DNA of 41,478 bases from Chryseobacterium gleum (GTDB taxonomy: Bacteria > Bacteroidota > Bacteroidia > UBA10329). The DNA lies in NCBI GenBank assembly GCA_945903645.1, contig CAMDOM010000029.1, positions 1-41,478 on the forward strand. The letters run 5' to 3'. The stretch's first letter is position 1. Every line of letters starts with the position of its first letter. Positions 23,033 through 25,819 of this stretch are shown here, one piece after another. The notes below the pieces were generated by a model that saw only the letters and a program-made list of their open reading frames with translations, was not told the DNA's origin and ran no database searches. The position numbers were made by a program, and so were the translations under genes.

Positions 23033-24820
23033 TTATTTACTGATGCTGATACGCGAAGTTTGTTGCTGACCACCTACTGTAAGCGTTACCAAATACATGC
23101 CAGAAGCGAAGCCTTCGGAAGAAAGTTTCAAATTGTGCTCTCCAGCTGCCATTTGACCCATTTCACGGTTCAAAACCGACTTACCTAAAACATTATATAC
23201 ACTTAAGGCCACCTTGGTGTTTTGAGCCAATTGGAAGCGTACAGTTGCATCTAAGGCAAATGGATTTGGGTAAACAGAAAGGCCGCTTAGAATTTCAACC
23301 TCTTCTATTCCTACGCCATCTCCTACATTGAAGGGCTTCAATTCTTGAGCGCCAAAGCTTGCTCCAGTAAGCACATTACCATTATTATCGCTTATCGTAT
23401 ATGAGCCATTGCCATAATTACAGCACATTCCATCGCCAAATCCATCATTGATAATAAACTCGTAGCAACCTAACTCAAGGGTGAAATCTTCGGTGAAAGT
23501 CTGTCCTCCGCTCACATTGGTATATGGGCCACCCGAACCAATTGTGTTTCCATTCGATCCTTTCAATAACCACGAAGTCTCGCTGCCATAGTTATCCGTT
23601 TTTATAGTAATGGTAACTTCCGAGTTGGAGTTTTTTGCAGGAAGAAACTCAACCAATTGAATGTCATTGCTAATTAATTGATCGCCTTGTCCATTTGGAT
23701 TCACAGTATGTATCCATAATGTATTGGTTGGTATTGACGAGAAAGTAATGTTTGGAAGGCTTACTACTTCAGTTTGGCCCGTTGTTAAGCTTCCTGTCCA
23801 TTCGTATGTCGAGACACTTCCAGCATTTACCGAGTACAAAATATCCAAGCTGGTCATCGTTTCATTCCCGAAATTTTGAATGGTTACTGATGATTCTAAC
23901 TCATTACCACAGACATACTCTGGAACAGAAACTATATAAGGCAAAGCATCATAGGCGTTTGCAGATACCAAAGTCAGTTCAGCCATGTCTCCAGTAATAA
24001 TATCCTTATTTCCTTCAGCGATAAATACAGAAACTTCTAAATCCGCTACTTTGATTGGAATTTCATGCAAATCAGCTGGAATATCCCAAGTATATGTGTC
24101 GGTGAAAAACGACCCTGCGCTCGTGTTTGAAATAGTAGCGCCCCACTGTCCAGTTAGAAAATGCCGCAGCATATGCTTGTGATTGTACTTGCCATTGGGA
24201 AGGATTTGTGAAGGATTTGCGGACGCTCCAGTTTGATTGCTTTCCAAGTTGTTTTCAGTGACAGCTACTGTCAATTTATTAGTTGCCGTAGCACTATTTC
24301 CAGTGTAATAGGCCTCAACCACCACCGTTAGGGTGCGCCCCACCATGTCAATGGTAGCGCGTGCAGCAACATTTACAGGAGAAGACTCATCAAGTATTTG
24401 GTTTGCTGCACCAGTCCAATCACCACGACTCATCGCAATTGCATTGGTGCCGCATGGTTGGTTGTTGTTATCCGTTTGTGACAGACCAGGGAAATATTGT
24501 CTATTTACAGTTCCAGCAGGATAACCACACAAACCAGACTGCCCTGCTAATGCCGTACCAAAGGCAGTTCGGAAATCAGGCTCGCCTGCATCTGGTGTAG
24601 CATAGCCGCCAACATGCACATTAATCAAAACAACATCGTTAGGATTAGCGTCATGCAATAGTTGTGCAAGCCTATGTCCATCTGGACAAAATGTGCAATG
24701 AATTCCTGTAAACTCTTCCAAAACAGCATTGCGGTTTTCAGGAACAGTACTTACAAAAGTTTGTGCGCACAACGAAAAGCCAGCAAGAGTTAAAGAAAAT
24801 AAAAGTGTAAGTTTCTTCAT
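23033..24820 (-). CDS. T9SS-exported Omp28-like protein with C-terminal sorting domain
   Basis: A 595-residue secreted protein. The signal peptide ends SLCAQ (residue 20). An Omp28/thioredoxin-like domain follows, with TGIHCTFCPDGH (Cys42, Cys45). A beta-sandwich middle part comes next, then at residues ~395-490 a module with TDNYGSETSW and GCYEFIINDGFGDGMCC, a repeat seen in many Bacteroidota surface proteins. The C-terminal ~85 residues are a T9SS type A sorting domain (SVYPNPF, then VYNVLGKSV, GMYLVTLTVGG, ending in SRISISK). It should be exported across the outer membrane and attached or released by the PorU machinery. A TAATTTTG element at 24860-24853 is the likely promoter, and a terminator follows the gene, so it is probably monocistronic. 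Confidence 0.9.
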   Translation of the reverse strand: MKKLTLLFSLTLAGFSLCAQTFVSTVPENRNAVLEEFTGIHCTFCPDGHRLAQLLHDANPNDVVLINVHVGGYATPDAGEPDFRTAFGTALAGQSGLCGYPAGTVNRQYFPGLSQTDNNNQPCGTNAIAMSRGDWTGAANQILDESSPVNVAARATIDMVGRTLTVVVEAYYTGNSATATNKLTVAVTENNLESNQTGASANPSQILPNGKYNHKHMLRHFLTGQWGATISNTSAGSFFTDTYTWDIPADLHEIPIKVADLEVSVFIAEGNKDIITGDMAELTLVSANAYDALPYIVSVPEYVCGNELESSVTIQNFGNETMTSLDILYSVNAGSVSTYEWTGSLTTGQTEVVSLPNITFSSIPTNTLWIHTVNPNGQGDQLISNDIQLVEFLPAKNSNSEVTITIKTDNYGSETSWLLKGSNGNTIGSGGPYTNVSGGQTFTEDFTLELGCYEFIINDGFGDGMCCNYGNGSYTISDNNGNVLTGASFGAQELKPFNVGDGVGIEEVEILSGLSVYPNPFALDATVRFQLAQNTKVALSVYNVLGKSVLNREMGQMAAGEHNLKLSSEGFASGMYLVTLTVGGQQQTSRISISK

Positions 24821-24852: not shown

Positions 24853-24860
24853 CAAAATTA
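24853..24860 (-). promoter_or_regulatory. Bacteroidota -7 element (TAATTTTG) for the T9SS Omp28-like gene
   Basis: An exact TAnnTTTG match on the minus strand, 32 bases before the ATG, giving a leader of about 26 bases. The MITE-like element begins only 31 bases further upstream, so no -33 motif at normal distance is visible. Confidence 0.4.
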
Positions 24861-24890: not shown

Positions 24891-25057
24891 CGGGATTCCT
24901 CAGGGGCAACGTATCAAAATTTCAGCAACCACGGGATATGCAGTAAAATCAGGGTTTTCATTTTTGTCCCCATCCAGAATCCCCAAGTTTTAAAGAACCT
25001 GAATCCCATTGTTTACAGGGGATTCAGATTTTGATGCGTTGCCCCTGCGGGATTCCT
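24891..25057. mobile_element. MITE-like non-coding element with 20-bp inverted repeats and 10-bp target duplication
   Basis: The 147-bp core (24901-25047) is bounded by terminal inverted repeats starting CAGGGGCAACG (24901-24920 against the complement of 25028-25047, 19 of 20 matching). Immediately outside both repeats is the identical 10-bp direct repeat CGGGATTCCT (24891-24900 and 25048-25057), as expected of a target-site duplication. Inside the right end, CTGAATCCC (24999-25007) pairs perfectly with GGGATTCAG (25019-25027), directly abutting the right repeat. There is no coding capacity. It sits between the divergent promoters of two T9SS genes. A 9-12 bp duplication with ~20-bp ends resembles some IS4-type elements, but the parent transposon is not identifiable from the window. 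Confidence 0.75.
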
Positions 25058-25114
25058 GCGAAATACATGTAACAATATAATTGTACCTTTATCACGAATT
25101 AAAAACACCGTCTC

Positions 25115-25819
25115 ATGGTAAAATCTTTACTCCCACTAGCACTTGCGTTCACTGCCACTAGCGCACTGGCTCAAAGTAGTCTATCAATAGTGACTATAGA
25201 GCGCGAAGTTTGGGGCAATACCACTTCGTCAATCATACAATCAAATGCCGCGGTAGAAAACATTAGTGACCAGTCCATTTCAGTCAAAGTGAGTTCCGAG
25301 GAAATTTCTGTGGTAGCAGGAACGCTTAATTATTTCTGTTGGGCGCAATGCTACGAGCCAGGAGTTACTGTGTCTCCTACGGCCGTTACTATTGAGCCAG
25401 GACAGCGAATTGATTCCTTTTATGGAGACTACAAGCCCCAAGGTCAGGCGGGAATTACCACCATGAAATACTGTTTTTTCAACGTGGCTAATGAAGCCGA
25501 TTCGGTGTGTGGCATTGTTCGATTCAATGCAACACCTGTTGGAATCCAAGATGTTGCTAATAGTTCAACCCCAGGTATTTCTGATGCATTTCCTAACCCA
25601 GCAGTTGGAGAAATGACCTTTAGCTATGCAACTGGCGGAGGAATAGGACACTTGGATATTTACTCCATGTTGGGCAGCAAAGTAAAATCAGTACGGCTAC
25701 CAGAGCTTTCTGGAAAAGCCAAAGTGAATATAGAATCGCTCACAGCAGGCATGTATTTCTACCGTCTGAATGTGAATGGAAAAGACATCCAAACTCGAAA
25801 GTTAATTATTTCGAAGTAG
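25115..25819 (+). CDS. Small secreted protein with T9SS type A sorting domain
   Basis: A 234-residue protein: signal peptide ending SALAQ (residue 20), a ~125-residue beta-rich domain with four Cys (FCWAQCYEPG, YCFFN, DSVCGIVRF), a short linker, and a ~75-residue T9SS sorting domain (AFPNPAVGEMTFSY, LDIYSMLGSKV, GMYFYRLNVNG, ending TRKLIISK). The N-terminal domain resembles the beta-sandwich found in many small T9SS cargo proteins; its target is unknown. Divergent from the other T9SS gene with the MITE-like element between them. A near-consensus TACCTTTA at 25084-25091 could be the -7 promoter element. A terminator follows the gene. Confidence 0.85.
   Translation: MVKSLLPLALAFTATSALAQSSLSIVTIEREVWGNTTSSIIQSNAAVENISDQSISVKVSSEEISVVAGTLNYFCWAQCYEPGVTVSPTAVTIEPGQRIDSFYGDYKPQGQAGITTMKYCFFNVANEADSVCGIVRFNATPVGIQDVANSSTPGISDAFPNPAVGEMTFSYATGGGIGHLDIYSMLGSKVKSVRLPELSGKAKVNIESLTAGMYFYRLNVNGKDIQTRKLIISK

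Follow-up and report, generated by a model that had tools for sequence, protein, structure and literature searches.

The window, which is the whole stretch of 41,478 nucleotides that was analyzed, harbors an ISAs1-type MITE between two divergent genes for predicted secreted proteins. It is a non-coding element with ISAs1 ends, of an ordinary and already known kind, and it has the usual properties of a MITE except for multiple copies in its own genome. We have little doubt that it is such a MITE, presumably inserted here through an ISAs1 transposase acting in trans on shared ends. In the mechanism that we propose, the transposase would recognize the two ~20-bp CAGGGnnAACGcATCAAAA ends, and insertion of the 147-bp core at the intergenic sequence CGGGATTCCT would have duplicated those 10 bp. 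The observations behind this assignment are the footprint itself, the shared ends, the 10-bp duplications of related short elements and of annotated ISAs1 elements, and two empty sites. The features of the locus are as follows:

23033-24820, reverse strand: leftward neighbor, an Omp28-like protein with a type IX sorting domain (Omp28, Por_Secre_tail), from a domain search and G007 and G003 orthologs in the same arrangement
24853-24860, reverse strand: putative Bacteroidota -7 box TAATTTTG of the leftward gene, from a match to the consensus TAnnTTTG alone
24891-24900, forward strand: left 10-bp copy of the target site duplication, CGGGATTCCT, from sequence and repeat comparison
24901-25047, forward strand: non-coding ISAs1-type MITE core, 147 bp, from ends common to an ISAs1 element of the same genome and a full-length homolog in G005
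24901-24920, forward strand: left terminal inverted repeat CAGGGGCAACGTATCAAAAT, 19/20 against the right end
24999-25027, forward strand: hairpin CTGAATCCC-N11-GGGATTCAG inside the core, adjoining the right inverted repeat, from the sequence, its predicted fold and the alignment with the G005 homolog
25028-25047, reverse strand: right terminal inverted repeat CAGGGGCAACGCATCAAAAT, 19/20 against the left end
25048-25057, forward strand: right 10-bp copy of the target site duplication, CGGGATTCCT, from sequence and repeat comparison
25115-25819, forward strand: rightward neighbor, a 234-aa protein with a type IX sorting domain (Por_Secre_tail), from a domain search and G007 and G003 orthologs in the same arrangement

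The preliminary description of this DNA had reported the core, its 19/20 inverted repeats, the perfect duplication and the hairpin with coordinates that are correct to the base; the hairpin stem is a perfect 9 bp. It had also read the locus as a complete transposition footprint without a transposase, and this reading holds. An exact 10-bp direct-repeat pair flanking inverted repeats of at least 14/20 occurs once in the real window and not at all in 50 shuffles of it, and the core, whose 147 bp allow at most 49 codons, has no transposase gene. The motif GGGATTC is common to the target duplication CGGGATTCCT (24891-24900) and the hairpin (24999-25027); since it is absent from the other duplications of the family, this sharing looks coincidental.

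Both flanking gene products contain Por_Secre_tail (PF18962), in agreement with their description as secreted proteins of the T9SS. The same divergent pair is found in the same order in G007 (locus L118; ortholog identities of 59% and 57%) and G003 (locus L119; 58% and 49%), where the start-to-start gaps are 124 bp and 144 bp, respectively, and lack the element, compared to 294 bp in the window. The best match to the MITE end in either gap is at most 12/20. Removal of the core and one repeat from the window would leave 137 bp, a plausible pre-insertion state as had been proposed, and the expectation that relatives with an empty site would be found was thus borne out in two genomes. The empty site is called from synteny and gap length, the intergenic DNA of G007 and G003 being too diverged for a base-by-base alignment.

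When the core was searched against the element's own genome (G000), it matched in full once, and several further matches covered its ends. Two of these end matches (C4:34624 and C4:35862) are the termini of a 1,239-bp element (G000:C4:34624-35862) with a transposase gene, whose product contains PF13808 and PF01609 and matches NF033564, the ISAs1 family profile, with 343 bits (E 1.4e-102; profile cut-off 70 bits). The IS4-type parentage suggested earlier is therefore replaced by ISAs1. The prediction of an IS with the same ends was correct in that the ends of this element, CAGGGTCAACGCATCAAA and CAGGGTTAACGCATCAAAAT, are nearly those of the MITE; it fell short in that they differ, mainly at positions 6-7 (GC in the MITE, TC or TT in the IS), and in that the transposase is broken by frameshifts, with its N- and C-terminal parts in other frames. 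Given the mismatch at positions 6-7, the C4 copy may be a cousin rather than the exact parent. It has no clear flanking duplication. A relic at C20:34363 comprises one end and the last 33 transposase residues. Beyond the C4 transposase, PF13808 gave no protein match in any of the nine genomes of the genus. Nor did the element's own incomplete draft genome (105 contigs, 95% complete) yield an intact transposase for MITE-type ends. The element would now be immobile there, because the only ISAs1 transposase found has frameshifts, and its present activity is doubtful. Another solo end, TAGGGGCAACGCATCAAAAT (L024:1578-1597; G000:C13, near 38078), has no partner and is probably a decayed element, while CAGGGGCAACG at C4:83368 was rejected as an element end, being a chance match within a helicase-like coding sequence.

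The ends and duplication length were also compared with ISAs1 elements elsewhere. Among six annotated ISAs1 loci on plasmids, five have ends starting with CAGGG and three have exact 10-bp duplications: L149, L150 and L153 combine the two, and L148 and L152 have the ends only. The ends of the Stanieria plasmid ISAs1 are CAGGGCAAACGCATCTAA, and those of an intact ISAs1 ORF in a Halothece MAG (L108) are CAGGGTAAACGCAYCAAA. Transposase-encoding elements with MITE-type ends thus include this intact one and the broken one in the own genome. Both features, CAGGG ends and duplications of 10 bp, are thereby linked to ISAs1. Like the MITE, members of the ISAs1 family (NF033564) start with CAGGG, some with CAGGG(T/C)AAACGCATC, and three annotated members have 10-bp duplications; in contrast to the 147-bp MITE without a transposase gene, they measure ~1.2-1.4 kb and carry one.

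Only one copy of the core is present in the assembly that contains it (105 contigs, 95% complete), so that multiplicity, a usual but not obligatory property of MITEs, was not seen there. Several copies with different duplications had been anticipated; this failed for the core in its own genome and held for same-ended elements in the sister species G007, whose 10-bp duplications differ. There are 17 occurrences of the end pattern in G007, and they resolve into ten complete elements of 210-302 bp. Exact 10-bp duplications flank five of the ten (ATGCACCCAT, GGCAGGGATG, GCATTTGGTG, CACTCACCTC and CCGTGTCGAA), two others have 9/10 and two 7-8/10, and one has none; the five exact and the two 9/10 duplications all differ in sequence. 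G311, from another family of the class, carries a 247-bp element that shares these ends and is flanked by the exact 10-bp repeat CGATTTCCTG. These unnamed short elements of G007 and G311 resemble the MITE in their ends, in their 10-bp duplications and in missing a transposase, but not in size or interior, and no homology of their interiors to the core was detectable.

A closer relative was found in the sister species G005 (Flavobacteriales MAG Tobar13m-G11, contig L097), which has a single 146-bp homolog of the core with 71% identity (BLAST) at a different locus. The alignment spans the full length, including the hairpin, which is partially conserved, with a z of 9.6 against shuffled interiors; the flanks preserve at most a decayed duplication (6/10). 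Many other matches of the core in relatives, at E 0.001-0.1, were discarded as short, mostly AT-rich and due to chance. Neither the core against plasmids nor the end pattern against viral contigs gave a match. With the core single-copy and no intact transposase found in its own genome, the case for mobility comes from relatives. The earlier proposal of a footprint left by a MITE mobilized in trans is supported by the near-identical IS ends, the G007 elements and the empty sites.

The single copy and the ISAs1 ends would also fit the insertion of a full ISAs1 copy that lost its transposase in place by internal deletion and never moved as a MITE. We regard this as unlikely, since the G005 homolog, which is of nearly the same size and whose interior and hairpin are related to those of the core, was found at a different locus, which indicates that the short form existed at two places. 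Moreover, to judge from the perfect duplication and the 19/20 ends, the insertion is fairly recent.

Insertion of a MITE in trans remains the preferred reading, and its consequences for the neighboring genes were considered from the predicted promoters. The TAATTTTG box precedes the leftward ATG by 32 nt, with the same spacing in G003, and upstream of the rightward gene TAnnTTTG is matched only approximately, by TACCTTTA at 25084-25091. The left repeat begins 30 bp past the leftward box and the right repeat stops 26 bp short of the rightward near match, spacings at which both core promoters should stay intact. The element lies upstream of both predicted core promoters, with change expected mainly in the DNA beyond them. 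It is considered very unlikely that the ISAs1 ends and hairpin, by replacing the DNA upstream of both promoters, rewired this divergent regulatory region, altered expression of the two secreted-protein genes and were retained by selection.

A functionally retained regulatory or structured RNA element of the two genes (an attenuator, terminator or small RNA) has in its favor the intergenic position between divergent genes and a fold far better than that of shuffled cores (z -7.2), but it is hardly credible, because that fold is largely a product of the inverted repeats, the core has no match in Rfam, no terminator-like site was found, the G005 homolog occupies a different locus, and the same gene pair without the element in two sister species contradicts it as an origin.

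Other bacterial MITEs offer parallels. MITE239, MITEPgRS/MITE464 and BrickBuilt of Porphyromonas gingivalis (PMC4596501) are likewise non-coding with ends resembling a resident IS family, although those ends are IS5-family-like and the duplications are different. MITEPye1 of Paracoccus yeei (PMC11578231) is also low-copy, with IS ends and direct repeats, and mostly intergenic, but its ends are of the IS1182 family. No description of an ISAs1-derived MITE was found in the open-licence literature; as the search was confined to such papers, this is a weak indication of novelty. For a genus of the Flavobacteriales, the present analysis documents an ISAs1-type MITE whose ends, duplication length and empty site were all checked together with its related copies, and provides CAGGGnnAACGcATCAAAA ends plus a 10-bp duplication as a signature for annotating such elements.

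Similar ends were also observed in more distant genomes. In Synergistaceae (L102), one end only was present. In the Chitinophagales MAG UWPOB_CHIT9 (L129-L147), repeat ends CAGGGCAAACGCATCAAA lie at 19 contig edges; when left and right flanks are paired, most duplications measure 11 bp. The G+C content of the 11 bp adjoining the ends is ~86% against a background of 46%, suggesting insertion into G/C runs. This repeat has the same ends and many copies, and was rejected as proof of a parent given its mainly 11-bp duplications and the absence of a transposase from the contigs examined. A ~127-bp element in a Halothece sp. MAG (L101:12-138), with ends CAGGGTAAACGCATC and CAGGGTAAACGCACC, is too short to fit a transposase; the ends match those of an intact ISAs1 gene in the same genome, and the element is likely a cyanobacterial ISAs1 MITE.
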